Below are positions 4,767 through 58,200 of a stretch of DNA of 64,000 bases, one piece after another. Source of the DNA: Bolinopsis microptera. Lineage: Eukaryota > Ctenophora > Tentaculata > Lobata > Bolinopsidae. Numbering within the stretch: position 1 is the stretch's first letter; each line of letters begins with the position of its first letter. A program made the translations under genes and the position numbers. Below the pieces are notes generated by a model that worked only from the letters and a program-made list of their open reading frames with translations, was not told the origin of the DNA and did no database searches. The DNA is taken from positions 5,759,538 to 5,823,537 of the forward strand of contig NC_087084.1 in the NCBI RefSeq assembly GCF_026151205.1, in the 5' to 3' direction.

Positions 4767-5170
4767 TTTTCATGGTGTCCCGAATTTTATTTTTAAATCG
4801 TCCATTTTTGTTTATATATGCAGTCTATCAATTTTTGAATTGCATCTTTTTGATTTAATGAACTACTGCAGACTCCACATTATTATAGTATATGCCATTA
4901 ATTTTGTTCCGATTTTAAACTATTCCATTTTGACGAGATGCTAAATTAATTTTTTGAGACTTTACTACATTTTTGATGAGAATTTTTGACATTTTCAAAC
5001 TAACCATTGATATTCTCAGATTATGTGACTGATTAAATGCTGAAGATAAAAGAAATATATTCATTTTGCTAAGATTATGTTTGCGTTTCATTGCTCAACA
5101 GCTGTTCGAAGGATCAAATTTAAGAAACACTTGTGATTCAATTCAATTGCCGTAGAACTTAACTTTTAGT
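4767..5170. other. Non-coding AT-rich stretch after the PLE remnant
   Basis: No open frame with coding character. It may contain the 3' untranslated tail of the PLE copy. A weak CTGAAGA...GAAAT string near 5040-5060 recalls a hammerhead core, but I could not fold it convincingly. Confidence 0.4.
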
Positions 5171-6190
5171 TATAAATTAAGGTGACATACACCAGAGATA
5201 GATTACAACAATAAGATTTGAGGCATTGAAAAAATTTGTTGAGACTACGCACATTCGAAAAACAAATTATTTCCTTTTTCGAAAGAAGCCAAGAGCCAAG
5301 TCAAAAATCATATCAGAACACGATTCAGATTTGATCTGTTAAGAAGTACACTCATTGCACTAAGAGGAATCAGAGGAAGATCAACGGCCCAGCATCTTGA
5401 ACTGCATGACATCTCCTTCAACCTCATCCCCCAGAAGACGAGCTTTGAGGTCTCCTAGATTTGTTTATGTAAATTTTGATATTTTACTGTACTATTTTAT
5501 GTTGTATATAATTTTACGGACGAAATGATCCCAGGGGGGACTCCCAACCCACCGCCTCGGCGGGTAGTTGACGCACCTTTCACAAGCAAGAGCCACTTTG
5601 GTCTACTTGCTGTGAGGTGTCTCAGCTACATGGGTTGGGGGTCCCCCCTTTTTTTTTCTTTTTTTTTCGAAAGTTTTGGAAATTTTGAGAAGTCTGTCAC
5701 TGTAATACCGACATTTCAGTCATTTTAAACGTTTTTTGGTTGATTTTTTACTGAACATTATTTACAATCCGTACAAGAAGCCCTTCAATGGATTTTATAA
5801 TTAAACAATAAATGACGAAGTTACAGACCAAACAAGGTCGAGAGAAGCAAAATTGAAATTTATACAAAAAATCAAAGTTGTATATTTTACCAATCACCCA
5901 GATCATACGACATCGCTTCAAAAATTCTTCATCAGCTACACATGACTGTAGCTGATGGTCATATCCAACATTTTGGAACAGGATTTCTCTAAATTTTGAG
6001 TTTTAAGGTATCAAATGTGACCTCAAACTGCAAACAACTTAGTAAAATTTAACGTAAAAATGGGCCAAAAATAGAAGATTTAAGGCTTAAAATGTGAAAT
6101 GCCTACAACTCAAAAATTATCAGTTTTTTTGAAATAGTTTTTACAGAATCGTAATCAGCTTGATAAGATGAATTTTCAGTACCAAATAAG
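5170..6190. repeat. Diverged copy of an inverted-repeat element (family also at 40434-41290)
   Basis: Several blocks match the better copy at 40434-41290: the acataccacca-like start and the aacaataagatttga block (5180-5225), the attatttacaatccgtacaagaagcc block (about 5757-5785), aataaatgacgaagttacaga (about 5807), and ttttacagaatcgtaatcagcttga (about 6140-6165). The copy is interrupted at about 5280-5655 by sequence absent from the other copy, including a strong hairpin. No coding capacity. Probably a MITE-like or foldback DNA transposon. Confidence 0.65.
5534..5648 (+). other. Long imperfect hairpin followed by T-run (possible small structured RNA or foldback)
   Basis: The arms 5534-5551 (GGGGGGAC, CCCAACCCA) and 5631-5648 (TGGGTTGGG, GTCCCCCC) pair. 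The inner arms 5565-5590 and 5606-5628 (AGTTGACGCACCT with AGGTGTCTCAGCT; TCACAAGCAAG with CTTGCTGTGA) pair as well. A small hairpin CCGCC-TC-GGCGG bulges out on the left arm. Immediately after the last C comes a long T tract with one C, like a Pol III terminator. I see no convincing A/B-box pair. Whether it is transcribed cannot be told from sequence. Confidence 0.5.
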
Positions 6191-29943: not shown

Positions 29944-31150
29944 CTATTTCAATGATAATTCATTTGCATCAAAGTTGTAACTGCACCAAAGTTGTCGGTC
30001 ATATTTAGACTGTTGTTCTAACAAAGATTTCTTGAGATTATTCTTGAATATACTGATGGGAGTGGAGAAGTCTATTTCACTTGTTGACTTACGGCAGTGA
30101 TTCCAAATACTAGTTGATTGATAGATGAATAGTGAGGATGGAGTGGGTGGGATGAAGTAGTTGTCTCGTCTTGGTGACCTGTTGAATAAAGAGAACATTG
30201 AGATTGGTGATTGGAACTTATTAATTTTGAACATTTCCAGTAAACAGTGCAACTTATGAAGATTGTGGACAGTCAGGAAGTTATACTCGTTACAGATTGG
30301 TTTACTGTGTTCTAGTTCAAAGAAATCTTTGCCTAACATCTGCTTGATAACTTTACCGGTCTTATCCCTAGTGATAGGCCTTACTCTGGCACATGTTTTG
30401 AACTTATTGAAGTATGCATCATTATCACCAAAGAGAATTCTTATGCATTTCTTTTGTGTTTTAAATATGGCTTCTAGTTTATTATTTGATACACCTCCCC
30501 AAACAGATATTCCATAACATAGGTGTGATTCAAAAAGGGTGTGGTACAGGTCCTTATATAGTTTTTTAGGTACACAGCGTCTAATTCCACATAGTCTACC
30601 TATCTCACATTTCAATTTACGGTTTAACGCTCTTAAGTGAGCATCCCCGTTCAGTTTTTGGTCAATAATGACTCCAAGAAACTTAGTTTCCTCCAAAATT
30701 TTTAATTACTATATTATTTAGTGTCAGTTCTAATTCATTGGTGTTTGAATCTGGTTCATTTCTACAGTTCGGCTTAAAGTGGATATAGCAACATTTCTTT
30801 ATGTTGATATGCAGCAAGTTACTCTTCATATACTGATGAACAAGTTTAAGAATTTTATTAGCTTTGCAGTAAAGTGTTTTTATACATTTATCTACAACAA
30901 ATATGTTGGTGTCATCGGCAAAAAGTATAAACTTACCTAGGTCTGATACTCTATATATTTCATTGATGTAAATAATGAAAAGCAAGGGACCTAATACTGA
31001 CCCCTGAGGAACACCAAATATTACAGACAGTTTTTCGGATTCTTCTCCAAGTACTGAAACATATTGCTGTCTATTAGAAAGGTAACTGGCTATCAATTTA
31101 TTTGCAGTCCCTCGAATTCCATAATCATTCAGTTTTTTAAGCAGGGCGCG
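29944..31150 (-). pseudogene. 5'-truncated LINE: C-terminal half of a non-LTR reverse transcriptase
   Basis: Two minus-strand frames form one broken RT. 31096-30683 carries GVPQGSVLGPLLFIIYIN and the catalytic FADD motif (LFADDTNIFV). 30696-29944 continues with the FLGVIID block of the thumb and the usual C-terminal region (HLCYGISVWGG). The frames are shifted near 30690. The RT fingers, the endonuclease and ORF1 are missing upstream of about 31150, as in ordinary 5' truncation. CR1/jockey-like RT; clade not determined. Confidence 0.85.
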
Positions 31151-31313
31151 ACTGTCGTATCTGATTCAGCAGTATTTTAGTTGGTTTTGATTCGTCATCT
31201 TCCCATGGTAGCTTAAGCCTAAATTTAAATAGAGGCCTGGCAGCCGTTCATCGTGTGTATCTATCATCTCTGCATCACGCGAGCTGTCCACGTACCACTG
31301 CATTCCTGCAGTG

Positions 31314-34030: not shown

Positions 34031-37000
34031 GTTTGTGAATTGTGTACAATTAAATTCTCTGTCTTGTCTATGGACATACGTTATTGGAAAATGTAGATTT
34101 CTCTTTTTCTCTACCTTGTGACAAAATTTAATCTCTACAGTACAGCTTAAAGAGCAAGTTTCTGGATCACGCCGTTTATTTTGAATTCTCTTTGCTGTAT
34201 TGCATCATCTATATGTACTATTTGTAAAAGTTTCAAATCAAAAATCAAGTTTGACATGGATTTATTATTTATGTTTCAGCTGTTAAGCCCACTGATTTCG
34301 TGGAACCTACCGAAAATATGGAAACTATAACGGAAGTTATCGCTGCAACAAATGATGTTGAAACAACTAGAAATGACTTAACTGTTATACCAACCACTGC
34401 TGAACCAACCACTGCTGAACCAACCACTGCTGAACCAACCACTGCTGAACCAACCACTGTTGAACCAACCACTGTTGAACCAACCACTGTTGAACCAACC
34501 ACTGTTGAACCAACCACTGTTGAACCAACCACTGTTGAACCAACCACTGTTGAACCAACCACTGTTGAACCAACCACTGTTGAACCAACTACTGATGAAC
34601 CAACCACTGTTGAACCAACCACTGCTGAACCAACCACTGCTGAACCAACCACTGTTGAACCAACCACTGTTGAACCAAACACTGTTGAACCAACCACTGT
34701 TCAATCAACCACTGTTGAACCAACTAGAAATGAATCTACTCTTGAAGGAACAGAGATTGACCCCACTGTTGAACCAACTACTATTGAACCAACCACTATT
34801 GAACCAACTGCTGATGAACCAACTGCTGTAATTGAACCAACCACTGCTGAACCAACCAATGTTGAACCAACCAATGTTGAACCGACTACTGATGAATCAA
34901 CTACTGTTGAACCAACTGAAAATTACTCCACTGAAGCTGAAATTTCATTCCGAATCGTTGATGAAAATAAAAATGACGTCACGAAGGGAGTACAAGGTTT
35001 ACTGCTCTACAACGGTGGGACAGTTTGTGACGACGATTTCAGCATGGATGCAGCATTTGCGATCTGCAAAGAAATGGGATATGTGAGTGCAATCAACTGG
35101 GACAGTGGAAACTATTTTGATGTTCAGGAAGACTTAGTGATAAAACTAGATGATGTAGCTTGCAGTGAACAAAGTTGGTCCTCTTGTTCTTACAGCGAGT
35201 CTAACAACTGTGGACATAGCGAAGATGTGTTTCTCACATGTATAACAGGTAACTTTACTATTCATTCAATTTCTAATTTTTAAATACATAGCATACAATT
35301 AATTTGTGACTGCACTCAAAACTATCATAATCCAATGAAACTTGAAAGGTACAACGTACGTCCGTACCCTTGCTAAACCCATATTAACTAAGCAGGACTA
35401 CATGTGTTACTTTACAAGCTCATAAACAAGTTAATCTAAATCTCTCGAGACCATTGGACGTTTTGTATGTCCATTGCATCGAAGTAGAACTGAAAATGTT
35501 GTATTCAATTCAGATGTTGAACCAACTAGAAATGAATCCACTGATGAACCAACTAGAAATGACTCCACTGTTGAACCAACTGAAAATGACTCCACTGAAG
35601 CTGATATTTCATTTCGAATCGTTGATGAAGATAGCAATGACCTCACGGAGGGAGGACGAGGTTTGTTGCTCTACAAGGGCGGGACAGTTTGTGACGACGA
35701 TTTCAACACGGAAGCAGCATTTGCGATCTGCAAAGAAATGGGATATGTTAGTGCAATCAACTGGGAGAGTGGAAACTATTTTAGTTTTCAAGAAGACCTA
35801 GAAATAAAACTAGATGATGTCGCTTGCAGTGAACAAAGTTGGTCCTCTTGTTCTTACAGTGAATCTCACAACTGTGGCCATAGCGAAGATGTGTTTCTCA
35901 CATGTATAACAGGTAACTTTACTATTCATTCAATTTCTAATTTTTTTCCCTACTCTTGCCGAAGGCAAAAAGATCGTAGGGAATAAGTAATCGGGTTTGG
36001 ATATATGAGGTGGCCCGATGGTCCTACGTTGACGACAAAAGTCTGCTCCTTCGCAATATAGACCACTCCTCTATAATTATGTGTATAAAAGGAACCTATT
36101 TTGCGCGCGCGACGCCAGTTATGTGTTAATTAATTACAGGCATAGCAACCAGTTTTAGGTGCTTGACGACTGTTACACAGGTTGCCATCGGGTTAAAATT
36201 TACTCTAATTCATTAATATAGCATATTAGTCATCTGAGCGGATCAATCATCAATATAAGTATAAATATTTTGTTGAAACAAGCTTAATAAATTACCGAGT
36301 GATAAAATTCAGCAAGTCAAAACAAATTAAATTATTATATCAGCTGATAAACTCGTGGCCGATTATTTAACAGTTGATCGACACTGAATCGTAAAAAGCG
36401 ATTACATATTTAAGAACAAATGCTACTTTACATTTACATTCAAGAAGCAACTAAGATCAAGATTGCGGTATGCTTTTAAAGAATCCTATATAGTATATAG
36501 TCGATGGTGCTTTAGATGTGTCGAGTAAGCATCAAAATGTATTAGTTTATGTTAGATACAAATAATAACTAAGATGAGACAAAATATTTTATTACAGTCA
36601 ATAAAGTTGGCATACGATGTAATAATATGACGTGACATAATACGCAACGTTAACACGAAACAAACCGCGCAAAATATGAAATGATCTACTACCAAACCAC
36701 ATACAGATCGACGGCGACACCTCAGATGCGCGCAGAATTTTACAAGTTCTGCACGCCTAATATAATGAAAATGATTATCACGTGCGCAAAACACCACTCT
36801 GGGATACAATAAAGTAGAACATTGTAGGCAGTAGGGAAATTTGATCGTGCGTGGTGTTACCGCGGCGAAATTCTTGTTAAATACATAGCATACAATTAAT
36901 TTGTGACTGCACTCAAAACTATCATAATCCGATGCAAAACTTGAAAGGTACAATTGTACGTCCGTACCCTTGCTAAACCCATATTAACTAAGCAGGACTA

Positions 37001-40000
37001 CAAGTATTACTTTACAAGCTTATTAAACAAGTTAATCTAAATCTCTCGAGAACATTGGACGTTTTGTATGTCCATTGCATCGAAGTAGAACTGAAAATGT
37101 TGTATTCAATTCAGATGATGAACCAACTAGAAATGGATCCACTGATGAACCAACTAGAAATGACTCCACTGTTGAACCAACTGAAAATGACTCCACTGAA
37201 GCTGATATTTCATTCCGAATCGTTGATGAAGATAGCAATGACCTCACGGAGGAAGGACGAGGTTTGTTGCTCTACAAGGACGGGACAGTTTGTGACGACG
37301 ATTTCAACACGGAAGCAGCATTTGCGATCTGCAAAGAAATGGGATATGTTAGTGCAATCAACTGGGAGAGTGGAAACTATTTTAGTTTTCAAGAAGACCT
37401 AGAAATAAAACTAGATAATGTAGCTTGCAGTGAACAAAGTTGGTCCTCTTGTTCTTACAGTGAATCTCACAACTGTGGCCATAGCGAAGATGTGTTTCTT
37501 ACATGTACAGGTAACTTTTCCATGTATTGACAAAATTATAATACCACTTACCTTGCCATTATGATAGCTAATTGCAAATATATATTATATATATATACAT
37601 ATATATTATATCGGGGCACTGATGATTGGTATTGTTTTATACATATTATCATGAAACGGATCGTTTGCCCGCCAATTTGATTTGTTTCGATTGTTCGAAT
37701 TATAATGCTCCTGCTTAACTGCAGTCGAGCACTCTCTTTGGGAAACCAAGGAACAACTATTTATTATATATATAATTATATAGCAAACACAAGATAATAG
37801 GAAATAAATCATAAAATCGAGTGGCAAAGTAGTCTCGACTCACCCATAGCTTCTCCATAAACGTCATGAGCTTTGTACACTAAATCGTTGAAATTACTTA
37901 AACACACTATATAACACTACTATATAAAATGTACCTTTACAGTCATCCTCAAATTATTTGTTATATATAACAAATAATTTGAGGATGACTGTAAAGGTAC
38001 ATCTTACCGACATTTGAAGTCAAGGCGTTGTTTTACTGACAGTTGTGGCTGACTGACAATTATATATATATATTTGAGCCATACTGATGAGTCCTAATAG
38101 GACGAAACACTGTGTATATGGATATATATATATAATTTTAATACTTTCAACACTACTATATAACAAATAATTTGAGAATTGATGTAAATAAACGATGCAA
38201 AGACTTTCGAAGATCTAATCACAACCGCTTTCTTTTATTGTGTAGAAGTCCAGCCATGAAATATATATATACTAGAAACCCGCTAGTCGAAAGCTTTGTT
38301 CGAGGAAATTTTAAAAATCAGTTATGTTTTAATTTCTCTTCATCATATAGCTCTGTTATACTGTAGACATAATGGAATTTATCTAACAATGGCGACAGCG
38401 TTGTTAGTATTCGGATTCCCAAAACGATACTTTTTACCGCATCAAAAAATACCAATCACAACCAAAGTTATGAATATAAGTCATAGCGTGAGCGTAAATG
38501 TGAGCTAGTTTTGAAATTATGACGTAGCATACAGCATAATATATAACAACGCGCGTTGTTAAGATGTTCTTGCTCGCGCACGTGCATTTTTATCGTTGCT
38601 ACGCAACAGCGCAGTAAACCTTTGCTAAAATAACGCCATTATTCTAACGATTATTTAACCTCACTTCCGACGTTAATTATAAAAAATCTAAAGCCTAAAT
38701 CAAAATTCTAAGAATGCTATAGCCTATTCCTATCCTTTTTCTACAACCCTGCTAAAAATGGCGAGGTTTCAACTCCATTTGCGAGCTGGGTTTGGCATCA
38801 CCAGAGGGTCATTTTGAGGTCGATTTTCGGTGTTTTTTCTTCTATGTCCCCGTTGCCGGGGAAATTTCGTCAAGTTTAAATTATAGTATAGATATATATT
38901 TCGTTGCTGTACTCCTACACATTAAAAGTCGGTGTTGATTAGATCTTCGAAAGTCTTCGCATCATTTATTAAACATCGTCATATATATATACTAGAAAAC
39001 CCGTGGTCACAGGGAGAAAGCTAATAGTATTTTTTGTTAGGAAGTTTAAATCGCGTCAAAAAATATTCAGCACAAATGAAGATACAGCCAATTAAAATGT
39101 TGCTCGTACTAGACTAAACACAGCGTAATATCAACAAAACCTATCGTTAAAAAAATCATTGCACGTGCACGTGCGTGTAATAACCCTCGTTACCATGGTT
39201 GCTATGCAACTTCCTATTTCTCGTCGGATTTGCACGTGGGCGGTCGTACATACAGACAACAAAAAGAATTTTCTGAATTGTAATAGAGATATATATATAT
39301 TGTTAGTCAGCCACAACTGTCAGTAAAACAACGCCTTGACTTAAAATGTCGGTAAAATATACCTTTACAGTCATCCTGATATAAAGACAAGTTAGCAAAT
39401 TTATTAAAAATATCAATCATTCAATCAATCAAATAAATTGAAATTAAAAATTTAGAAACTTACGTAACTCAGCAATTCAAATAACTGATGGGTGAAAATT
39501 CTAAATGAGTGGTAGAGGTGAGGAAATAAAATATGCAAGAAAAAAAATCATCTTTCTTCTCTAACACTCATCCCTCCAAAGCAAAGTATTTTAACGTTTT
39601 AAGCTGGTTTTACCAAAAGTTCTCCCTTTGTTTACATATACTTAGTCTATCCTGGGCGCATTGCTCAAAATTCACTACTATACGTCAACTTTCTCTATAA
39701 TAGAAACATTAATGTCCTTACTTAAAGTACTGGTAAACAACTTAGTGGTGGTACGGTCAAGATTGTGCAAAATCTCATTATCTATAAAATGGCAGGACAG
39801 TTCGCAAGTCCTTCTTTGGGTTTTAATGTGAGATTTATGGTTCCTAAATCTAACCTTTAGAAAGTCTAAAGTGCATCCTATATAACTTAACTTACAATTA
39901 ATATCATTAACTATGTATAGAAAATTTTTGGTATCACAGTCCAATCACAGTCCAATATATATATTGTCAACACCGACTTTTAATGTGTAGGAGTACAGCA

Positions 40001-42110
40001 ACGAAATATATATATATACATATACATGTATATATATAGTAAGTTTTCAGTCTTTTAAGTAGACTTATCTAGGATGGTCTTTAGGATGTTCTTAGTAACT
40101 ACTTTGGATTTGTGTAAAGTTTGATAATAATATATATATTTGATAATAATATATATATATATATGCTCGCCTAGTTTACTAAGCTTGAGCACTCTGGGAA
40201 TGAATAGATCTACCACTTAGAAAAACAGCAATTTGTTGTTTTCTTGAAAGCTGAAAGGTGTACACTGTACATAATTACCCTTTATGAACACATGTTATAT
40301 AATAGTCAGTGCTTTAATGTGACAATATTCTTTGGGGTTATGATGGATCGAGGGCTGTCAACTATAGCATGACGTATCACACAGTTTTTGTTGTATTAGA
40401 ATTTTGAATTGATGCCATATATTAAAAGGACATACACCAAAACATTTTTTGCCAGGATTCGAGATTTGACTTCATATTATGAAAATATAAATAAAAACAA
40501 TAAGATTTGATACACTGAAAATTTTTTTAGAGAGTACACACTAAAATACCGATAATTTAGTAATTTTAAAAGTTTGGCTGTTTTTTTGCTGACCATTATT
40601 TACAATCCGTACAAGAAGCCTTCCAAAGGATTAAATAATTGAACAATAAATGACGAAGTTACAGAGAGAAGCAAAATTGAAATTTTTGCCAACTGTTAAA
40701 GTTGTACATTTTACCAATAATCGACGTCATAAGATATCGCTTCAAAAATTCTTGTGAGTGTAGCCACGATGATCATATCCAAATTTTTGGAACATGATTT
40801 CTCTCAATTTTGAGTTTCACTTTCAAGGTATGAAATCTGACAAAGGTCTTAGTAAAATTCATATCTCAAATAGTATCAGTTTTTTCGAAATAATTTTTAC
40901 AGAATCGTAATCAGCTTGACGAAACAAAACTTCTAGTTCCAAATTTATAATACTTAAAGACACAAAATTTGTAAACAAATTTGTACAACTTGTACAAAAT
41001 TTATACAAGGGGGGAGGGACCCTTGTATTCGAACTAGAAAATTATTTATGACCATTTTTCTTCTAAAATCATCTATTTGTTACTAAAAGTTTCGTCTTAT
41101 TATCGGTATTTTATTTTTAGTGACAGACTTTACCAAATGTTAAAAAATTTCCAAAAAAAATGTTTTTGAAAGTGCGTACTCTCAAAAAATTTGTTCAATG
41201 TATCAAATCTTATTGATTTTATCTATATTTTCATAATATGAACTCAAATCCTGAATCCCGGCAAAAAAGGATTTGGTGTATGTCCCCTTAAGCCTTAAGG
41301 TATATTAAAAGTTAAGCTTTTACTTTGTAGAAAACAAACTAAACAAATGAACCATTTTAAGCTGGATCTGTATTCAAACTGGTAGACGAAGATGGTAGCG
41401 AAGTAAGGGCGGGAGAACAAGGACTATTACTGTTCATGGAAGGAACAGTGTGCGATGATGGCTTTGATTTCAACGCTGCTAATGCGATCTGCAAAGAGAT
41501 GGGATACGAAAGTTCTCAGAGCTGGAACAGTGGATTAGTATACGATAATATGCAGAACAGTCTTGACACAAACTTAGATGATGTCGACTGCCGTGAAGAA
41601 GTGTGGTCCTCTTGTAGTTACGTGACATCAGAGGAAAACTGTGGTCACGAAGAAGATGTTTTCATTACATGCATAGGTAAAATATCTTTATTTCCTAGTT
41701 TTAAGTTTACCAATAAATAATTATTACCTATTAAATTCGCGTTTTTGACACCACTTGGGGATCCAAATTTTGGGCTCTAAAACTCTTATTTCTTGGCCAA
41801 TTTTTAATTATTTCATGCTGATTTGGATGCAATTAAAGCATTTGACCCAGTCAACAACGTTCCAGTTGAATATCTTTTACGGTTTTTGCGGAAAGTCTCG
41901 TTAAAGTTGATACCGTGGTGTCAGTAAAATGGTACGGAACCCTCCATATTATATATCGTCTCGCTTTATATATAGTAAGATATATACAAGAAAAACAACG
42001 ATTCTGCAAACTTACAGTTTCATGCAAACGCAATCATCAGTGTCAGAATAACTTACTATTACTAAATCCATATATTGTCCTAACACGCTCCTTCATAAAA
42101 TTAACTGAAC

Positions 42111-42141: not shown

Positions 42142-45100
42142 AAAATCAAAACAAAACGAAACGAAAAACAAAATAAAATATTCCTAATAGAAGCATTTCT
42201 TGATCATAAATTTGTTGGTGTGCCTACATTTGCTAATAAATTCTTTTCTCACATTTAATAGATTGTCGTCTTTATTTAAAATAATATAAAGTTTTTCAGT
42301 AAGGCAGAGATGACAATCTTTTGTACCCCCCCACCCCCCCCCCCCCACCCCCCCCCCCCTTGTACGGATGAGCATGTTGGATTATTTTCCAAAATATTTT
42401 ATACGGGGTTTGTTTATCTTTCAACTCCCATATTTTCTTAAATAGCTCCGTCTGGTTTCGTAGCTTACTGAGTTTGAAAGAGCTTGTGTGTGTACTGAAG
42501 CGGGTCTTAAAAGTGTTTTCAGTTAGCCCAATATATTTGTGCTCTTTCTTTTCCTTTTCTACTGCAATCGTTGCTTCATATATCACTACGGGGCTTCCAG
42601 GCACTGTCCTTTTAGTAGGCACATTTCCGGCTTCCTGCAATTGCACATTTTCGCCTTTATTGTAGGTTTTTTCTGAGCTTGGTGTCTGGTGATCACTAAG
42701 ATGGATCCTATGTTGGGTAGGCAGCTGTACGATAGCTTGATTTTGTTTCTGTTGAACAGCTCGTGGAATTTTGTCCTCTGGGGAAGTGTTTGTCTAGTAA
42801 TGTTTGTTGTTACATTCGAGCAGTAAAGGGGGTTGAACCATACGACATTCCTGGATCTCTTCCTGTTGGCTCATGGCAAGGCTGGTATCTGTAAACTATA
42901 GTTGGTGGTCGTGGCCGCTATCGTTAAGAGCTGTTCCGTAAACCCCTTTCGCTTTGTCAAACTCTTCTTTATTGCAGGAGATGTCCGATAGTCGCCGGTT
43001 TATCATTTTGGGGAGATTGTTTATGATGGTTGGTGGGTGGTTTGCAAAAATTAATACAGACTTAAAGCAAAAAATGCCGAAATTTTGACATTTTTTTGAA
43101 TTTTTACCCGGGGAAATCTTGGGTTCTCTTTGCTACAAAAAAACGCCCAAAACGGTATGAAAATTTGGAATTTTAATGGTTTTGAATCAGAATGCCTTCG
43201 AGTGTTCATTTTAATGTCCGTTAATAATTATGTCTGTTCAAAATTATGTCATGTCAAATAACGTCCGATAAGGTAAATTTTTTAACAGGAATGATGAACT
43301 CAAAGTCAATGGTATCCGGAACTGACGAAACAACAACAACAACACAAGAAAGTGACATGTTGGACAGTTTGACGCAACCAGGTATGTTTTGCTATCAACA
43401 AATTTACCCATGAAAGTTTCCGAAACTTTAAGTTTCGGTCGGCGCCTTTTGAAAATTTCCGGGATCAGTTTGATGGACTAACATTTTGTCCGGAGTTGGC
43501 TAATCTGGTCATTGGCGTTTCGCTGTATGAGTGTATGAAGTAATAAGCAAGCAAACAAATACCTTAAGCTTCTTTCAACACATGTGTGATGTGTAATTTG
43601 TATCAGCACGGGCTGTTATAAGTGTATATATAAAGATATAAAGATATAAGGAGTATAAACTACACCATGTGCGGTATGAAACCGCTATAAACCAATATCC
43701 TGAAAACCTGTATTGTTTTCAAATATAATCATTGTTTCCCTCAGAAATGTTATCTTCTCCTGCTGGTACCTCAATTGGATACTCTGGGGATAAAATGATC
43801 CTATTTTGTGAAGCCAGTTTCTTTCCAAATATTCCAATGACTATTGAATGGAAGGTGGCACGTGGTAACAGTTTTGCTGAAGCAGGTATGCGGAGTGATT
43901 CGGCTTTTAAAAATTAACATAGATAGTGAAACAAGTACGAATTACAAATATATATATACAAATTATCATTAACAAATTATCATTTTTGATCAATAAGAAT
44001 CATTATTTTTCATACATAATATTTTGTTACCAAAACCCGAATAAGTGGACTGTCACCAGTGCCTTTTTTCTAAACAAAATTTAACATGATGTCAATTGAG
44101 TCCTACAAAAAAAATTAGTCCTATACCGAAAAAAAACAAACATTAAAAAATCATTTATTTTTGTTTGGCAAAAGGAGACATTGACGACGGTCCAGTTTTT
44201 GGTAAAACACTAATTAAACACCAGGCACTTGTTATGTTTTTGACTCCTACAATTTTTAACTGCGGCAGTGAAATCCCGGCCGAAGGCCGGGTTATACTAG
44301 TATTATATATATGTATATGATTGTACCTTAGGGCAAATAAATTTGGGTCACAATAAATTTGGTTACCATAATTTTGGTTACCATAATTTTAGTCACAAAT
44401 TTCGCAAATTTTTTGTCTGCAACAATTTTAGTCACATTTTTCGACTTTTCGAGACCATTTTCCATTCCATTTACCTTAAGAACGGCAAAGTTAGTCTACA
44501 CCGTCTGAGCATTACAGATTAAGCTGCAATGCATTACTCACGAATTTCAATAACATCGGATCCAGAGTTTGTGACTCTGTATCACTAAGTTCTTCAGTAC
44601 ACTGTTCAGTGTTCAGTTTCTTTTTCACCCTTTTTCGACTTGACCATTTCTGTCGGTACGACGTAGTTTATGTCGATATGATTCAATTAAATTGAATGGA
44701 AATCACCTAACATAAAGCATTTTCTTAACTTCTGTCCATGACTTCGCGTCACCAAAATGTAAACCAAAATCGGACTTATGCTATTCTGATTCTTTGACTT
44801 TTTCTTTTACGTTTCCTTACTAAAGTTTTAAATTATAAACTATGATCATATATATAGACACGGTACGCAAACGTATCTATAATATATTTCAGGCTGTTAT
44901 ACAAGCTACGAGCAGAATGTTGGTCTGTTTCCTGATTCCCAGTTATTATTACAGAGGGAGTTCAGGAGTTTTGAGAGTTGTCAGGAATGGTGTGATGATA
45001 CTCCCCGCTGTAAAGGAGTAACCGTGAGTCCCGAGAATTGGGCTACCCGAGAGTGCTTTCTAGTGGGCACTACGCACATAACCGCAAGGAGTGGATGGAC

Positions 45101-48100
45101 TGCGAGTTCTCTAACTGATTGTGACCAGGGTAAATTACACAACGCATTTTTCCTTTTTAAGCTCTAGCGCTTTTTATCGTGCATGGTTTTCCGTAGGCCT
45201 CAGTGCCTGAAAGTGGTGCCTCAAGGGCCTTAAAGTGGTGCCTCAAGGGCCTCAGTGCCTCAATGCGTCACAAAGTTATCTGGATCTTGTATGATCCAAG
45301 TACAACAGTCCTGGACATCTCACTATCCCAATATACCTTTAAAACAGGATTTACAAAATGAACCACATACAATTTGACTTTTTTTGAAAAATCATCACCG
45401 CCTGCCTCATTAGCAAAATTTAGCAAAATTTAGCAAATTTTGCTGTCCACTTTTGTCCGTCTGGCAATGTCCTGTCCTGTCCTTTTTGGATTCTATCTGA
45501 CAAGCGGACATAGACGGACGTGATCTATCAATTCAAAAATGAGCACCCGTCTGAACAGATTAAGCTGCAGATTACAGATTAAGCTGCAATGCATTACTCA
45601 GGAATTTCAATAACATCAGATCCAGAGTCTGTGACTCTGTGTCACTAAGTTCTTCAGTACGCTGTTCGGTTCCTTTTTCACCCTTTTTTGACTTTACCAT
45701 TTCTGTTGGTACGACCTAGTTTATGTCGATATGATCCTTCAGCCGTTTCAACAGACCATGCATTGGGATGGATCGATTAAAAATGTAATGTCCAAGAGGA
45801 GCTCTAACCCTTTAAGTGCTATAGGAATTTGGTACGGTTTTGTACAGTAGGAACGGTGATGTCATTATATTAATTATAAAGCCCTATAAACAATGTAGGA
45901 AATGTAAGCTTAATAATATTCAATAGTCATGTCATATATGCTCTACTGAAATTTTGGTCTCCTTTAAAATTAGTCGTCGAAAAATTTAGTCTCATGAAAT
46001 TTGGTTTACTCCAATTTTCGTCAAAAGTTTGACTAAATTTATGGTAGACTAAATTTGTCGTTCTTAAGGTAAGTAAGAAAAAGCCGAAATAACGTCTTAT
46101 TTGAAGATTGGATAACTTATGCTCTTGTCTTGACATAGCCGACAATACTTTTTAAAACAGTTTCAAAACAGTTTCACTTTCGTGTGAATGACCTCCTTAA
46201 AATGATCAAATTCAGCTACCAATGAAAGCTGAAAGGTGTACTTTACCCTTAATGAACACATATTATATATTATAAGATTGTGAGCAAGAAATAGCCTAAA
46301 TACAATCATATTTGAAAAGTGATTCACCTATGCTCCTGGCATAACAGAATTATCAAATACTTTAATAATCAGTTTTAATGTAAATTGTACATCCAAAAAT
46401 AAAATAATCTTAATCAAATTCTTAATTCTCATCAATGATAGCTGAAAAGTGCACTTCAATTTATGTTCTTATTATTTTTAAAATGACGCGACTGTTTCAA
46501 TTCAAATTCAATATATGTCCCTGTAGGACAGCCACCTCATAAAAACAAATTTTAATGGAAGCGATGATAACAGAACATTTTTATCTTTTCGTCCAATGTA
46601 CCCAAAGAAAAATATATTACTCAAGAAGCCCACCATTCAAAATACAAGAATTTTGAAATCCAAATATTTTACTTACTACTAGGTGTAAGCTAAATATTTG
46701 TTAAGATTTCCGAAAATTTACTGGAAATTATTTCTATCTTGCTCATATTGCTATTTTACCTGGGGACCTCAATACCTCATGCTTTTTCTGTTCATAAACA
46801 GATTAAATCGATCATAAACCGATTGAAGCTGCGGCGGAATGACACTAGGCTGAGCGCCGCCCAGCGACTATTTTCAAGCAAGTTAAGGAACTCTTTTCAG
46901 ATGAAGAACTATTTGGATTCAGAATCGTTGATAAAGATGGCAATGACCTGACGGCGGGAGGACGAGGTTTGTTGCTCTATAAGGGTGGTACAGTTTGTGA
47001 CGACAGTTTCAACGATTATGCAGCATTTGCGATCTGCAAAGAAATGGGATATGATAGTGCAATAGCCTGGGAAAGTGGAAACTATTTTGATGTTCAGGAA
47101 GACTTACTGATAAAACTAGATGATGTCAGTTGCAGTGAACAAAGTTGGTCCTCTTGTTCTTACACCGAGACTAACAACTGCGACCATAGCGAGGATGTCG
47201 TTCTCACATGTTCAGGTAACTTTTCTCACCTTGCTAACCCAATTATGGTCATTACTTATGCAGCTGCATATGCAGTAATGGGAGAGAGCGCGAGCCCCGT
47301 AACTCTTACCGTTTTCTTGATTAAGCTGCTCAAGCCATTTTATGTAACATTTGTGGTACAAAACCACCAATTAAACCACTTACCACCGACCGATATAAAA
47401 AAACCTTTACCTTTTAAATTTGTCAGAGTTTTGTCGGCACTTTACCGAAAAAATCAGCCCCGTAACTCTTACCGTTTTCTTGATTAAGCCGCTCGGAAAT
47501 TACACACGCACACACAGAAAACACACAGAAAACACACATTCACTCTGAGATTATTGTTTAAGATTATCCACGAGAAAGAATTGATAATGAGATACTATTG
47601 GATAATGGATATGTGAGGGCACTCCGAATAGAATTGCTCACCTAATGCGGGTTTTGAATTAGCGGGTAATTACTCCTACCCTTTTTAACTGCGGCAGTGA
47701 AATCCCGGCCGAAGGCCGGGTTACACTAGTAGTATTATATAGAGGGGAAAAAGGTATAGTGAGTATAATGGCGGCGGTCGTGCTTGCCAGCACTGTGATA
47801 TAGATATATCTTTTGGTATATATACCAAAAGTAATTTTAATCTATTTTCAGGAACTCATGATTTTAAACTTGTTGACAACGAAGGAGAGGAAGTTACGGT
47901 TGGGGAACGTGGCTTGCTATTGCATAACGAAGGAACAGTTTGTGGGGACGATGAGTTTAATGCCAACGCTGCAAATACGATATGCAGAAAAATGGGGCAT
48001 TCAGTTGCTAAGAATTGGGGATTTGGAAATCAATCTGAATTTCAGAGTAACTTGACTATAAATTTAGCCGGTGTGAATTGTATTGTCGACGGTTCCTGGT

Positions 48101-49152
48101 CATCTTGTGATTATAACTTGGATAACCTTACCTCCTGTGAACATAGTCTAGATGTATTTCTCACCTGCTGTGGAGGTATGTTTTTTTGAGAAATTAAAAA
48201 AATAAAATAAAATAAACATTAAAATATATCACAGAGATTCTGCATTGTCATAAACTATAGCAGTTAAAATCTTTAATTAGGTAATGATAACCATTAATTT
48301 TAAGAGAGCGTTACGAACATCGAGGGCAGGAGTTCTTTGACCATTGGATGTCTTTCCTACGATGAAAACCATCGAAATAACTACACATGCCTCGTGGAAT
48401 ACCCTGATATTGAATTATCACTACAGTCTTATCCGGCGTCCGTCTATGTTAAAGGTTTACTATGTGAAAATTACGTCTGTTCTTATTTTATACCTGTAGC
48501 ATTCTCAGAAAAATAACGTATAATTCAAAGGTGGTTAATTCCACTCAACATCTCTTAAATGACAGATTTCCAGACAACAAATACAAAATGATAAAAAATA
48601 TTCTTATTTTTTTTCAATAAAGCCTCTCACTAAGCTTTTTCATCACAGGATTTGTTGAATCAGACCCAGAGATTCACAACAAGCAAGCTGGTGAAAACGT
48701 AACGTTAACTTGTTTATACGTGACTACAGGCAATGTATCTGTGTCGTGGACAAAGGTAAATATAATTGATAGAATGTAAATGTCTAACGCTTTTTCCCGT
48801 CCAAAGATTGTGCATGTGCACTGTGCAGTAGTGTGTAGTGTTTATTAAAGAATTTAAAAAGCCCTTATAATACTTTAATATCACTAGCAGGAACCCGTCG
48901 CGTTTTTGACACTTATACTTGGGGTCAAAATTTTGGGCTCTAAAATTTTTATTCCTTGGCCCATTTTTATTTTTTCATGCTGATTTGGAGGCCATTAAAG
49001 CATTTGACCCAGCCAAAAAAGTTTCAGTTGTATATATTGTATGGTTTTTGCGGAAAGTCGCGTTAAAGTTGATGCCGTGGTGTCACTGTCAGTAAAATGG
49101 TGCGGATAAACACATATACATATATATATTATATCACCTTAATAACACAAGA

Positions 49153-49225: not shown

Positions 49226-52200
49226 TGATGATCGTCTGTGTGTCCGTGTGTAATTTCCGGTCGGTTATATCAAAAAAACGGTAAGAGTTACGGGACTGGT
49301 TTTTTCGGTATAGTGTCGACAAAACTCTGACGAAGCCCATAAGCAATTTTTTTAAAATCGGTCGGTGGTAAGTGGTTTAATTGATGGTTTTGTACCAAAA
49401 ATGTGACATAAAATAGCTTGAGCAGAACGGCAAGAGTTACGGGGCTTGCTCTCTCTCTCTCTCTCTCATTACTGTATTATATGTAGCGTCATAATTGGGT
49501 TAGCCCAGGAAGATTCGCTGTAATGTTATACCATAAGCTTATTAGGGGAGGGGGGACTGTTAGTGTTTGAGGTCTGTTTGGACTGCAGAGAGAGAGTTCA
49601 TACGACAATGTAATGTTATGCCTGTTTTCAAATATAATAGGCGGGTGTGGTGCGGAGTTAACAAGGGTTAATTTCTATAACGATTTAAATAAAAATGGAA
49701 AGCGGTTCAAGACTTACTGGGTGGCGCTCAGCCTGTCATTCCGCCAAATCTTTATGAACATAATAGCCTGGAGTCCCCAGGTAATTCAAGACGGGAGTGA
49801 TGAGGTGTAATAGTCGGTGTGCAGACCTTATGAATATGATCATGGAATGTGGTGCCTAATGGCTAATAATGACTTAATTATTCACGAGAAAGAACTGATT
49901 ATGAGATTATTGTTTAAAATGCTTTTGGGTCACCTAATGCGGGTTTTGACTCAGCGGGTAATTACTCATACCCTTTTTAACTGCGGCAGTAAAATCCCGG
50001 CCGAAAGCCGGGTTACACTAGTATATAATATATATACATAATTGTGGGTGGCGTCGTCTGCTGAAGAAGGAGGAACCACAGGGTCCTTTGGTTCAATCCC
50101 CCTTCTCTGTCACTGTGGAGACCAATGATGGAAGGAAATTCTTCAATCTGTTGGAGAAACACTTCCCTCGGGACAATCCACTACACAAGATCTTGAACCG
50201 GAACAGTGTAAAAGTCTCATACAGCTTTATTAAAAATATGGAATGCCTCATAAAATCCCTGAACAAGCAGTTGATTCGTCAGCACCAGGAAACCCAGGAA
50301 CCCACCACACGGCACTCGGCAGTGCTACTGCCGCTCCAGGAACTCCTGCCCACTAGACGGAAAGTGTTTATCGAAGTCTGTGGTATACATGGCGACCCTC
50401 CGTACGGAAAATGAGAAGCACCACTACATCGGAATGACGGAACGCACATTCAAGGAACGGTACAACGGGCACACGTCATCATTTCGCCTGGAGTGGTACC
50501 GAAATAGAACCAAACTGTCGGAGAATATCTGGTCCTTCAAAGACCGTGAGTTAGAATTCATATCAGGATCGAATGGACAATAATCAGACGTGGACACGGA
50601 TACAGAGCCGGCCAGAACAGCTGCGATCTGTGCACGTCTGAGAAATTGGAAATCTTACTTCGATCCTCTGGACCTCTGAGCCACACTTAACTCCAGGATG
50701 GAAATCCTTACAAAATGCCGCCAAAAACGGAAATCGGGAAATTCCTTTTATAATCTAATGACTCATATATGAATATCTAACCCCTAGTATTGTTTCACGA
50801 GTGAATGTTTATGTTAACTTTTAGCTTTGTAATTTTAATTTTAGTTCCTATACCTCAGTTGTCACTGATGATATCATGGTTTTGTATCATAATTGAAACA
50901 TTTGTCTGACTCAACCGGTCGTTTCATTTTGTATATATATATTATTAGTCAGCCACAACTATCAGTAAAACAACGCCTTGACTTCAAATGTCGGTAAAAT
51001 GTACCTTTACAGTCATCCTGATATAAAGACATGTTAGTAAATTTATTCAAAATATCAATCCATCAATCAATCAAATAAATGAAATTTAAAATTTAGAAAT
51101 TTATGTAACTCAGCAATTCAAATTATGGTGGGTGGAAATCCCAAATGAGTGGTAGAGGTGAGAAAATAAAATAAGCAAGAAAAAATCATCTTTCTTCTCT
51201 AACATTCATCCCTTCAAAGTGTTTTAAAGTTTTAAGCTGGTTTTGCCAAAAGTTCTCCCTTTGTTTACATATACTTAGTCTATCCTGGGCACATTGCTCA
51301 AAATTCCCAACGTCAACTTGCTCTATAATAGAAACATTAATGTCCTTACTTAAAGTACTGGTAAAAAACTTAGTGGTAGTACGGTCAAGATTGTGCAAAC
51401 CTCATTATCTATAAAATGGCAGGAAAGTTCACAAGTCCTTAATTGAGTTTTAATGTGGGATTTATATATATATATATATATATCGTCTCGCTTTATATAT
51501 AGTAAAATGGAGCTACACCAGGTTTAAGGACTTCCATCTCATTACATAATATTCATCATTAAATAAATATAATAGATTTGTAGTGCTGTAATTAGTTTGA
51601 GTTTGCTAATTAATGTATGTTAACAAATTTTAGGGTTCTGAAAGTCTGTTCACCGGACTAACGACGTATCTCGGTGATGGTGTGACCCAGGGAGCTTTGG
51701 TGTTATCTAATCTGTCCGTGACAGACTCTGGATTGTATAGTTGTTTTGCAGAGGAAGAAGGAAGAGAATCATATGTTGCAGTTACTCTCAATGTGTTTGG
51801 TTGGTTCAAAAACATGTGTTAATAAAACAAAATTAGATAAAACAAAATTGTATTTTATACCCACAATCAATTTATATTTAGTCAACAAATTTAAAGTCAA
51901 ATTAACCATTTGTTGTTATTCCTTATCGGAATTTATTTATTATATCTAGTAGCTCTGGTGTTCAGCAATAAAATTTACATTGCATTTACATAACTATTTT
52001 GAAATTTTGTATTTATTAACAGGATATTGTTCTTTTTAAAAATTACAGCTAAATCTGTATATTGAAATATGCATATCAGATCTGTTTAAATTTTCATATG
52101 GAATAATAACTTACCTAATAATGAAACAAATGCCTCTTGCAATATATGTGTACCAATTGGCATTTGCTCCATATATAAGGAGTAGACGCTACAACATGTG

Positions 52201-55200
52201 GAATAAAACCACTATAATGTATAAAAGTATAAACAATTATCTTGAAAATCAGGATTTTATCTTTTTTTTATAATTGCTATTTCCATCAGGCATTATATCT
52301 TCTCCTGTCAATTCTATTGGATACTCTGGGGATAAACTAACACTTCTTTGCGAAGCCAGTTACTTTCCAAATATTCCAATGACTATTCATGTTTGGAAGG
52401 CTGAAGCTGGCAGCAACTTTTCTAAATCAGGTATCCTACAATATTGAGAGTTATTTTTGAAAAAAATTTGTTACTCAAGGAAAATTTTGTATTCTTAAGA
52501 AAACTTAGTTATTGAAAAAAAGTGAGTTTTTATAGATCCGATTTTCTTTGTTAGGAGCTGTGGTCAAGATTACCACTATTAGATAGAGCATTACAGCTTC
52601 GTGCTTACCCCGGTAATATTTTTAATGTGAAGCGTATTCGTGTAGGAAAGAAGGATGTATGTTCACCTTTATTACCGTTATATCAACCGACGAAGAAACA
52701 TATACGTTATCAACAGAGCGGATTATACCGTTTTTGATAAAATGCCTTTATTTGCTTGATAAACTTTCAAGTCCTGGTATATCCACAGATATGTTCAATA
52801 AGCTATGTATAAAAGAAAACTACGATTTCATGGGAGCTGACATAATAATGGTAAATGACGTGGACTCTTTTATGGACTGTATAGCTCTGTGCTTTGACCA
52901 GGCTGGCTGTGTCTCAGTCACCCACCAACCAGCCACCTCCAGATGCTGGCTCAAACACACGGAGTTTGGTGATAACCCTCAGGACATGGACGGGGTCAAC
53001 AGCAGTAATCTCAAATGTTGGCCAGGTAATTTGTTGATTAGTTACGTAATTTCTTTATAATCGGAATATTTGTTGACTGCACCTTTTATTACTACTAGCA
53101 GGAACCCGTCTAACCTAAAGTGGTGTCAAGATTCGACAGACTAAAATAACTATTACCTATTTAATTCGCGTTTTTGACACCGAATTTGTCAATTTATGGG
53201 CACTAATATTCTTATTCCTTGTCCAATTTTTTTAATTTTTTCATGCTGATTTGAAGGCCATTAAAGCATTTGAACCAGTCAAAAAAGTTTAGGTTGTATA
53301 TCTTTTACGGTTTTTTGCAGAAAGTCGTGCTAAAGTTGATGCCATGCCCATATTGGTGTCACTGTCAGTAAAATGTTACAGATAAACATATACATATACA
53401 TATACGTACATACATACATGTTACATGGTAAGGTCTCCTCCTAGTCGTTGGAGTGGCCTGCATCACACACATCGCGTTGGCGGCGTAACATATGTCTCCA
53501 CTGTACTCGGTTGGTAGCCAAAGCTTCTGTTGTGTCGTTGTCAATGTTTTCAACACCTGTAAACTTAGCAGCATCTTCGAGTACGCAGGACTTCCAGTTC
53601 TTACGGGGTCTGCCCCTTGACTTCTTTCCATAATTTGGCTTCCAGTTCAACAGAAACCTCGGTAGTCTAGAGTCTGGCATTCTAACTACATGTCCATACC
53701 AACGTAGCCTGGCAGCACTGATGAAAGTCTCAACTGACTTGATGCCAGCCCTCCTAAGAACTTCGTCGTTGGTCACATGAAAGAACCATTTAATCCTAAG
53801 GATCCTTCTCAAGGAGGTTTGATGGAAAACCTCGAAGCGTTTCATCTGCTTTTTGGTGGTGTTCCAGACTTAAGCTCCATACAACAAGATGGTGAGGACA
53901 GCAGCCCTATAGATCCTGATCTTGGTTGGAGTCTTTATAGTTCTGCTATTCCAAATGTTCCAGAGCTGATGAAAGGCGCCATTAGCCTTCTGAATACGGA
54001 CATCCAGGTCTCTGTTGATTGTCCCATCCCCACTGATAGTTGCACCCAGGTAGCCAAAGTTGATAACCTGCTCGACGGGTTCACCCTCAACCGACAGCTC
54101 AATACAATCATCCTTGATGAAAGGTCGCTGGGAGGCGCACTTACTTACAGCTATGCATTGGGTCTTCTTTGCATTTATTCTGAGCCCAGCGTAGGAGCTG
54201 TAATGAACTAATAGATCAGTTGATTCCTGTAGGCCCTCCCCTGAGTTGTCCATAATAGCCATGTCATCAGCATAATCGGTGTCCAGAATGACCTTTTCCT
54301 CGACCGTCTTCATCTCTTTCTGCAGCACTGCGCCTTGACTGATGATCTTGTTGGTCTCAGCCAGAAATGCAGAAAAGTTTAGGCAGAAATTAAAGACAGG
54401 AGGTGCTTGAATGTCACCCTGACCTGTGCCTGAGTTAACATCAAACCAGTCTGTCAGCTCCCCATTAACCCTCACGGCACTCATGGTACCCCCAAAAAAA
54501 GACTGAAATATTCTGACATATTTTTCAGGCAGCCCATAGTGTCTCATACTGCACCAAATAAAGTCCCTTCTGATAGAATCGAACGCTGCCTTGAAATCCA
54601 CAAAATTAATGTAAAGAGGAATGTTAAACTCAAGACAGTTATGAATAATAGTTCGGAGAGAATAAATCTGATCAATACATGAGCGGTTTTGTCTAAATCC
54701 GCACTGGTTCTCCCTGAGGAGACACTCCATACCAGCATGTAACCGCTTATATGTATATATACAATATACATCCATATATATCGTCTCGCTTTATATATAG
54801 TAAGATATATATCTTCTCGCTTTATATATAGTTAGATCATAGAAATTGAAATTGGCCACAATTGAAAAGTAGCCATATCCTGAAAAAACTTTCAACGGGT
54901 TTTGATAGTTGGCTTGGACCGTAAACGGACACACTATATTTTAATGGACATTTATAAAATTAACGGTAGGGCCTCCAGACACAGAAACAGCAGTTATAGA
55001 ATCAACCGAAAACGATGACGCTGCCAACGGTTTGTTTAAATTATTCAGTTAAAGTATATTCTCTTGAGACCAGTCCTTTCCTCAAATGAATTAAATAAGA
55101 TTCGTTGCAGTGCAATCTTGCCGCTCGTCACAGCTGGTGCTGTAAAACCCCATTTTACTGCGGCTGTTTCCTTTCTCTAAGGCTTGAATTTCGCAGTATA

Positions 55201-58200
55201 TTGTGAGTTTACAGCACATTCATAACCACTAACCAATGCATTCAATGATCAATCTCTGCCATGAAAAATATCTAAAGCATGCTGGTTTATATACATTTGA
55301 ACGTGCACAATATTTAAAGCATGCTGGTTTGTATAAATTTGAACGTGCACAAAATCTAATGCATACTGGTTTGTATACATTTGAACGTGCACAATATCTA
55401 AAGCATGCTGGTTTGTATACATTTGAACGTGCACAATATCTAAAGCAATAAAGCATACTGGTTTTTAAACAATTGAACGTGCACAATATCTAAAGCATGC
55501 TGATTTGTATACATTTGAACGTACACAATATCTAAAGCATACTGGTTTGTAAACAATTGAACGTGCACAATATCTAAAGCATGCTGGTTTGTATATATTT
55601 GAACGTGCACAATATCTAAAGCATACTGGTTTGTATACATTTGAACGTACACACATGGTTTCAGACACGTTTTCACTTGTTGATATCGAAGGCGGAGCAG
55701 CTGCGGCCGGAGAACATGGTTTGTTGCTGTACCAAAATAAAGGTACTGTTTGTGCGGGTCCTCACTTTGATGGCACCGCTGCAAATGCAATTTGCAAAGA
55801 AATGGGGTATTACAGTGCCAAGAGGTGGGAAGTGGGAGATTACTTGCAGGGGAGCCTGAACATTTCACTTGCTAGTGTGAATTGTGAGAATGATACGTGG
55901 GAGTCCTGTGATTACTCAGAGACAATCCCTTCCTCCTGTCACCATGGTCAAGACGTGTTTCTAACCTGTTGTGGAGGTAGATAAATATATTAATGAGTAA
56001 ATAAAATTAAGTTTTTTACAGCACAATTATAATCGTAAGTATGAATTTCTAGCCCCAGATATGAAATATGATGAAACGAGATCTTCCACATATCAAAATT
56101 GCAGATTGAGATAATTCATAAGAAATGCCAAGTATCATGGTGCTAATATTGAATTGGAGGTCTGCATGAAAATACTCTATCCATTCATTAGACATAACAA
56201 ATAATGGTATGCAATTATTTCAAAGACCGAAACTAATAATACAACTTTTTTTTAGATTCCATGGTGTCAACCACAGAGGGTAAAGCCACTCTGACTATCG
56301 GATGTCTTTCTTATGACAGAAACAATGAAGACAAGTACAAATGTTTTGTTGACTACTCAGATGAAGGTATAACTCTTCAGTCGCGTGATGCAGCGCTTAT
56401 TCATGTAAAAGGTTGGTTATACATACCTTGGATTAATTTTTTGATTGGATTAGTGGTGTTCCTAAAACTGGTACATACTTTATAACCTGGAGGGGTTGTC
56501 TAAAATATATAAGTGATACGAAAAGTTTATTAAGCAGGATCAGCGTTCAAATTACTTTTAACTTGTGTAAATCGTATTCCGCATTATAACCTAACTATTT
56601 ATCCCCCAAAGGATTTCTTGGATTCAACTCAGTGGTGCACAAAGTAATTGCTGGTGACGAACTTTCTATCTCTTGTACTTACATGACAACAAAGAATGTA
56701 TCTGTTGCCTGGAAAAAGGTTATTTTTTATAAATAACCGAACGTTTGAGGGAACCCCCTTAATCTTTTCTTTGAATAGACATTTAGGAACACTTTTTTAT
56801 CAATAACTTGGCTTTGTACAAGAAACATGCTTCATCCTTTAATCTGTAAAATTACATAAAATAGATTTTTTAGGGCCTGTCGTGATATCATGGATCGCTT
56901 AGGTTCCACCAGGATCTGGTAGTCCTCATAATTCTGCGGCCTCTATGTGTCGTCATCTCGCACAACTCCGAAAAACCGTTGTGAGTTTGGCATGTGAAAT
57001 TTGCAGCCCTCCAGACATCGATTGGGTTAACGAGTTGTCGTACGTCACCTCAAGATCGGGTGACAGGGGGCTGAACAGGCCAGAACCCAATTGATTGGGT
57101 CTGAGGTCACGTGATTATGAGCCTGAGGTCACGTGACTATGACGTCACCAGAGCTCGTTCTCCGTTTCCCGCTCTTTGGACCAGGTGAGCTTGCATGCTT
57201 GTGAAAGTGGGTGTAAGTACAGCTGTACTGTAGTTACATCCAATTACCCCTAATAGAATGAAGATTTATTTTCTGACAGAAAGCTAGAAATTTACCAAAA
57301 TATCGACTTAGTTCAAAATTTATTTTGATGACCACTCCTGACCTAAAATTGCACGAGAAATCGATTAAACTTGGTTTCAGAACTCAACAATGCTTCCTTA
57401 TGCCTTAAAATCCATTTTTATCGATACAATAAACATTTTGATCCTGTGGATTAATTAGTAACAGGTAACAAATGCACAAAAAAAACCATCGCACTTACAT
57501 TGCATTCTTAACGGGTCGATTTCGAGTGACCAATAATCGTCGTGATGATATTTATACGTCATGCGTTCCTGATCATCATCAGCAATCAAGAGACAGGAGC
57601 GGCGATTGCTTTAAATCAACGGTTTACGTTATTTTTGTGAATTCGACCCCTGTTTTTAACGGTTATCACACTTTGTCATTGAATGTATTGAGGATAGCTT
57701 TACAAATAAGAGGACCAGTAAATAAAATTGTCACAAGTGTTTCTCTCATTCACTTTCGATAAGACACAATGAAAATTCTTACTTAACCATAAGATTCGGA
57801 ATTTTTCAACATTTGAAGAATATCGGCATTTTATAAAATGTAAGTTCAATTTTTACAAAAAATCAACGAATCGTATGGTCGACAGGTTCAAGTCTACTAG
57901 CAGGAACCCGTCTAACCCATTTTGACAGGTCACGGGACCACCACGAATTGAATTATAAAGATCTATCCAAATTCCACGAAGACTACGGACCAAGTTTAAA
58001 TACTTCATTATAGTTGGATTCGGGAAGCAGTTCAATTGTGCTTTGCACGGAACAACTTATATCACGAGACCGCCATTTCTGTTGAACCGAGAGATTGCAA
58101 ATCAAACTAGTTTCAATTTCAGATCACCTTTTATGTGTTCATTTGTGGTGGACTGGTCAGTATACAAACGTGGCACGTGCGGGCATATTTCTCAGTTTGA

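Follow-up and report, generated by a model that had tools for sequence, protein, structure and literature searches.

How is a gene to be read in which two exons encode only the front and only the back of an immunoglobulin (Ig) fold, and the exons between them encode whole domains of other kinds? The question is raised by a locus of the ctenophore Bolinopsis microptera, within a stretch of 64,000 nucleotides that we call the window (RefSeq assembly GCF_026151205.1, contig NC_087084.1, hereafter C13, positions 5759538-5823537; coordinates are window positions and features lie on the + strand unless stated otherwise). From its exons the locus would encode a large extracellular protein and looks like a receptor gene; the Ig in question, IgA, occurs three times in it, each time in an IgA-IgB pair. 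A preliminary description of the first copy left two explanations standing, a splice switch between an Ig-bearing and a PAN/SRCR-bearing ectodomain, or an Ig with whole domains inserted in a loop. The answer towards which we lean, with more confidence than doubt, is that IgA retains PAN and SRCR domains in its C'-D loop as the outcome of exon entry into a phase-1 intron.

Results

In module 1, exon F1 (43745-43885) encodes the front half of IgA domain 1, strands A to C', with the B-strand Cys and C-strand Trp, and exon B1 (48305-48454) the back half, strands D to G, its E and F strands including a YTC motif. Between the two lie PAN1 (44893-45129; six Cys), SRCR5 (46901-47215; six Cys) and SRCR6 (47852-48175; seven Cys), the last adjoining the back half. 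All five exons have AG/GT splice sites, are a multiple of three bases long and are bounded on either side by phase 1, and the limits of the inner three agree with those first described to within 1-2 bases.

Do the halves make an Ig? Neither F1 nor B1 has a Pfam match alone (the scan of single halves covered these two, and not F2 or B2 of the second module described below). A hidden Markov model search of the joined halves, which the preliminary description had taken to be the front and back of one Ig, does match Ig families, though below their curated cut-offs: the Ig_3 match of F1+B1 has an E-value (E) of 5.9e-4 and 20.7 bits, and that of F2+B2 has 2.1e-3 and 19.0 bits, for a curated cut-off of 30 bits. 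Two copies of the same Ig in which nothing separates the halves, one in module 3 of the locus and one on contig C5, give 5.1e-5 (24.1 bits) and 1.7e-4 (22.5 bits). Both interrupted modules have the Ig signature (B-strand Cys, C-strand Trp, F-strand YxC), which aligns with that of the uninterrupted copies. When a profile of the four copies was compared with the PDB, it aligned with DCC over nearly the whole profile length and also matched NCAM and contactin. The best whole-chain E was 1.8e-5, a value that sums several weak Ig matches, a single DCC Ig reaching at most about 12 bits; major histocompatibility complex and antibody chains were likewise among the matches (best 60 of 238 PDB rows). 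For the plain F1+B1 query the best PDB match was DSCAM (E 3e-4; 13.3 bits for the best single Ig). Aligned with DSCAM Ig1, and with the strands named in the usual way, F1 meets B1 at the C'-D loop, and an extra Cys of B1 comes at the end of strand E.

It might be asked whether these halves still are an Ig at all, or whether they are remnants of one, left as linkers or small hairpins next to the PAN and SRCR domains. Such decay would fit with modules 1 and 2 scoring lower against Ig_3 (20.7 and 19.0 bits) than module 3 and C5 do (24.1 and 22.5), and with no Ig being detected in the inclusive chain. However, the three signature positions are retained in both modules, the half exons F1-F3 and B1-B3 are flanked by splice sites and give stop-free joins, and B1 and B2 differ more at third codon positions, so that we consider a vestige improbable.

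That the two halves are one Ig is well supported by the undivided copies. Searching the genome (a 264.65-Mb assembly of 232 contigs) with F1 gave, besides F1 itself and F2, a match on C5 and a weak match on C10, four in all. The C10 match we reject as due to chance (E 0.02, one stop in frame); by eye there is no back half nearby, and no profile search was made there. B1 returned three matches, namely B1, B2 and B3. A search with the front half from C5 additionally finds F3 (60587-60715), the front half of IgA domain 3, whose back half B3 lies at 72936-73103 in window numbering, some 9 kb past the window end. With profiles of the local exons, the 12.2-kb intron between F3 and B3 gave no PAN match and a best SRCR match of E 5.9, and there is no N in the window or in the downstream stretch that spans this intron. 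On C5 the IgA halves are adjacent, with a 161-bp phase-1 intron between the front exon (4763-4894) and the back exon (5056-5150, continued at 5283-5358; offsets in C5:15971000-15980900), and an Ig that by eye resembles IgB follows. Since both the C5 homologue and module 3 are found without an inner exon, F1 and B1 belong together, and a state with nothing between the halves exists in another gene and probably in this gene as well. An Ig must exist whole before it can be interrupted, which makes insertion the likelier direction than its reverse; the undivided Ig is thus probably ancestral, with PAN and SRCR exons having entered its intron. The C5 gene, which by eye holds several tandem Igs besides the uninterrupted IgA, should be useful as an outgroup. 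Retroelement-like frames, named by eye, lie between F3 and B3, including those at 2667-5400 (- strand) of stretch L008.

The preliminary description had also seen no other partner for either half, and this is borne out by a profile search of the window and about 19 kb downstream, which found no further half adjoining F1 or B1; a hidden partner nearby is accordingly rejected. In addition, 186 open segments of phase 1-1 and 120-200 bases, from 43.3-60.1 kb, were joined pairwise and scored (best 14 of 378 joins). The top joins were F1 or F2 with B1 or B2, plus length variants of these. F2 scored higher with B1 (79.4) than with its neighbour B2 (75.0), and even F2 joined to itself, which has no meaning, reached 73.7, joins of two front halves coming nearly as high because each front half itself matches the profile.

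What had been described for module 1 alone is repeated downstream. Module 2 (F2-PAN2-SRCR7-B2, 52290-56411) copies the layout, again with an IgB after it: F2 (52290-52430), with splice sites and an open frame, is the front half of IgA domain 2, PAN2 (52789-53025; six Cys) and SRCR7 (55665-55976; seven Cys) are inserted, and B2 (56256-56411), the back half, adjoins SRCR7. Identity between the modules is 62% for F1/F2, 52% for SRCR6/SRCR7 and 51% for B1/B2. Differences at third versus first and second codon positions are 0.27 vs 0.19 for F1/F2, 0.57 vs 0.32 for B1/B2 and 0.41 vs 0.29 for SRCR6/SRCR7, and the ratio of nonsynonymous to synonymous divergence (dN/dS) is ~0.51 for F1/F2 and ~0.34 for SRCR6/SRCR7, the dS of B1/B2 being beyond estimation. 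The likeness of F1 and F2 reaches about 100 bases into the upstream intron (43644-43889 vs 52173-52434, 70% DNA identity), above that of other exon pairs, which may mean that this exon was copied or converted after the rest, possibly by gene conversion. A retroelement-like frame (53870-54790, - strand; named by eye) lies inside the intron between PAN2 and SRCR7.

This repetition bears on whether the interrupted Ig could be an artefact of assembly or of the gene model, in which exons from separate genes, or tandem copies put in the wrong order, had been strung together. The region is indeed rich in repeats and retroelement-like frames, but the same order is found twice, in diverged sequence, on one strand and with matching phases, and there is no N in the window or in the flanking and C5 stretches (L008-L010); we regard such an error as very improbable.

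The main rival is the splice switch, in which the PAN and SRCR exons would be cassettes and the gene would give a plain Ig in some products and a PAN/SRCR ectodomain in others, perhaps depending on cell or stage. In its favour, the joined halves are still Ig-like, and the inner exons are all of phase 1-1, so that every subset stays in frame. The earlier statement that the frame is kept with or without the inner exons is correct, as all eight combinations of module 1 are open, and so are all four of module 2. However, phase 1-1 is common to most exons here and no signal of switching; since every subset of symmetric exons is in frame, phase cannot decide between switch and insertion, and we reject it as a sign of the former. 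Nor did the profile search described above find a competing second back half beside F1 or F2, which also counts against a switch.

The cysteines are more informative. SRCR6 and SRCR7 each have a seventh Cys that directly follows the last canonical one (codons 48169-48171 and 55970-55972), and SRCR5 has six. Our control took the 30 best of 150 listed genome matches together with the C13 stretch, which gave 66 SRCR matches, or 46 after removal of end-truncated matches and of repeats of the same domain. A Cys at this position was found in 2 of the 46, SRCR6 and SRCR7, exactly those that lie just before B1 and B2. Strand E, moreover, ends in a Cys in B1 and B2 (LTIGC; codons 48349-48351 and 56303-56305), where B3 (LVIES) and the C5 copy (LTIGS) have Ser. 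Over the 12 possible isoforms of the two modules, the number of Cys is even in the six that keep the last SRCR (SRCR6 or SRCR7) and odd in the six that skip it; a plain Ig would have three Cys in both modules, against two in F3-B3 and in the C5 copy, which is a further point against the switch. (In the isoform table for module 2, and in its Pfam scan, PAN2 carried four extra leading residues, none of them Cys; with the correct PAN2 start the full chain has 16 Cys.) An AlphaFold model of SRCR6 with six SRCRs of the window (pLDDT, the predicted local distance difference test, 69) has a last strand, 99-106, that contains the Cys pair, which is weak support at most. Because the two extra Cys occur together, are absent where nothing is inserted and leave an odd number when the last SRCR is skipped, insertion is favoured, that is, a finished protein that would keep the PAN and SRCR domains within the Ig rather than splicing them out. 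We accordingly think a splice switch unlikely, though not negligibly so. Of the two explanations first offered, then, it is the inserted Ig that gains, and the part of that account that must be changed is its restriction to module 1, given that module 2 repeats the interruption and module 3 is without it.

Several observations weigh against a retained insertion, or at least against leaning too hard on the evidence for it. The joined F1+B1 and F2+B2 are under the Pfam Ig cut-offs, as are the uninterrupted module 3 and C5 copies, and the inclusive chain, with the inner domains kept, gives no Ig match. The DSCAM alignment, at 13.3 bits, is weak. AlphaFold gave no usable model for the back half alone, B1 with B2 (mean pLDDT 51). 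By eye, the joined F1-B1 has a normal spacing from the Trp to strand E, so length does not exclude the skipped form. For the SRCRs, the control samples the 30 best-scoring genome matches among 150 listed, plus the C13 stretch, and so a part of all SRCRs; that for strand E comprises only nine strings, at least one of them doubtful and none with Cys, from a motif that misses B1-B3. Both modules probably go back to a single evolutionary event, and the Cys pair is then not doubly independent evidence. Finally, F1 and F2 are less diverged than B1/B2, PAN1/PAN2 or SRCR6/SRCR7, so the history of the modules was not one simple copy.

As for the inserted domains themselves, PAN1 and PAN2 have an identical exon length of 237 bases and six Cys each; against the PAN_1 cut-off of 21.4 bits, PAN2 passes (1.3e-7, 31.8 bits) and PAN1 fails (E 0.0029, 17.8 bits). 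In PAN1 the first Cys is at the exon's first whole codon and the last is third from the end. The first and last Cys of apple domains pair, and if those of PAN1 do likewise the ends of the domain would be held together, as would suit a pendant insert. SRCR5, SRCR6 and SRCR7 all match the SRCR profile and have the six canonical Cys, by which we take them to be of group A. Pfam SRCR matches were obtained for SRCR5 (C13:5806518-5806751) and SRCR6 (3.5e-7), and the profile match of SRCR7, itself one of the three profile seeds, has 2.6e-55. Among PDB entries SRCR6 matches a DMBT1 SRCR (E 8.5e-4), in which a Ser stands opposite the extra Cys.

On either side of the modules lie further exons of what may be one large gene. 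The IgB that follows B1 has its halves (48649-48755, phase 1 to phase 0, and 51634-51799) separated by a phase-0 intron and, when joined, matches Ig_3 at 2.3e-9. In module 2 the front half of IgB (56612-56718) is placed by its DNA match to 48644-48757 and by splice dinucleotides, and the back half (59834-60008) by the one of four nearby AG acceptors, 59834, that gives the same phase 0 as its counterpart in module 1. Upstream of F1 are a Thr-rich linker exon of phase 1-1 (43289-43381), inferred from open frame and splice sites alone, and SRCR4 (41362-41676; SRCR profile match 6.3e-39, with acceptor and donor), the last SRCR ahead of the linker and module 1. Three SRCR frames upstream of SRCR4 (34255-37530), the first of which shares its open frame with a long mucin-like repeat of the TTVEP type, probably encode an N-terminal part of this gene's product. 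Past the window end, at C13:5833679-5838319 and on the same strand, lies SRCR8, divided over two exons, and after it, in matching phase, comes a frame of 1280 aa with LDLa repeats in three stretches and a partial match to the rhodopsin-family seven-transmembrane (7TM) profile (positions 151-260 of 260). If this frame belongs to the same gene, a connection made by gene model only, the product could be a G protein-coupled receptor (GPCR) with a very large SRCR/Ig/PAN ectodomain.

The remainder of the window includes a long tandem array (22411-26163) open in several minus-strand frames, a short-unit tandem repeat (20750-21900) that reads TPYSLLL on the minus strand, retroelement-like frames at 771-4196 and 29944-31165 (both - strand) and frames at 27055-27863 (+ strand) that resemble the C-terminal part of a cytochrome P450; the last two kinds were named by eye. 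Elsewhere in the genome, two of 32 glutamate-receptor matches were compared with the PDB: one (L018) has the Mnemiopsis receptor ML032222a as its nearest entry (E 2.2e-37), whereas the other (L017) is nearest to delta-1 receptors of vertebrate type (E 2.3e-19) and is uninformative as to the organism. Matches of the family searches at megabase-scale positions lie on C1-C13, in keeping with published ctenophore assemblies of 13 chromosomes.

Discussion

In the evolutionary scheme that we propose, PAN and SRCR exons would have entered the phase-1 intron that divides IgA, a form of intradomain exon shuffling, and copying of the module would then have spread the interrupted layout. The main protein would retain the inserts, its Ig folding from two separated pieces of the chain with the PAN and SRCR domains hanging from the C'-D loop. 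The Cys at the SRCR exit would pair with the Cys of strand E and so tie the last inserted domain to the Ig; should the DSCAM-like alignment hold, the two would be brought close because the residue after the SRCR exit begins strand D, with the strand-E Cys opposite. It is tempting to go a step further, and this is the least certain step, and to imagine the Ig as the hub, and the PAN and SRCR domains as the binding surface, of a receptor for recognition or adhesion, a role suggested by the types of domain and by the response of Mnemiopsis SRCR genes to Vibrio, discussed below. The complete picture, of an Ig with two or three pendant domains, a new disulfide between SRCR and strand E, an ectodomain with LDLa repeats and a rhodopsin-type 7TM, and undivided copies surviving alongside, is offered tentatively, as a combination that is possible rather than probable.

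Exon shuffling, on Patthy's account, is reportedly usually described as the addition of whole domains at domain borders. Here, unlike in shuffling of that kind, the intron that whole modules appear to have entered lies within a fold, and since undivided relatives survive in a second gene and, apparently, in this one, the states before and after can be compared directly. If the Cys tie is real, it would illustrate one route by which an insertion of this sort is fixed.

Pieces of the arrangement have counterparts elsewhere. In Mnemiopsis, SRCR proteins are expanded, with novel domain combinations, and SRCR genes change expression on Vibrio exposure (PMC11797021), and sponge Adhesion GPCRs bear SRCR repeats (PMC4302439); the excerpts of these reports mention no split Ig, and the downstream 7TM here, unlike that of the sponge receptors, is a partial match to the rhodopsin family whose link to the window exons we infer. 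Among the matches listed for the literature on split Igs and on SRCR, Ig, PAN and GPCR combinations, no title or abstract opening refers to an Ig split by PAN or SRCR. Dscam is similar in having an exon that supplies no more than the first part of an Ig domain (PMC1397879); however, its exons are alternative versions of the same part of the Ig, and the passages on it describe no foreign domains between halves, whereas here unrelated domains lie between them. The split PH domain of PLC-gamma has autonomously folded modules inserted in mid-domain (PMC8803661) and is thus alike in holding modules inside another domain, but the fold and the modules are others and the protein is intracellular.

The closest precedent, by analogy, is integrin beta, in which a vWA (I-like) domain lies within the Ig-fold hybrid domain and that in turn within the PSI domain (PMC1538996, PMC9856412), the hybrid domain being described as having likeness to the I-set (PMC3392225). 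The two systems share a whole folded domain that interrupts an Ig-like fold and leaves its halves far apart in sequence. They differ in what is inserted, a single vWA in integrin and a PAN with one or two SRCRs here, and in that the Ig of B. microptera has the usual Cys and Trp signature and undivided copies in the same genome. How discontinuous domains arise, the integrin hybrid domain among them, becomes a question that can be tested here in one locus.

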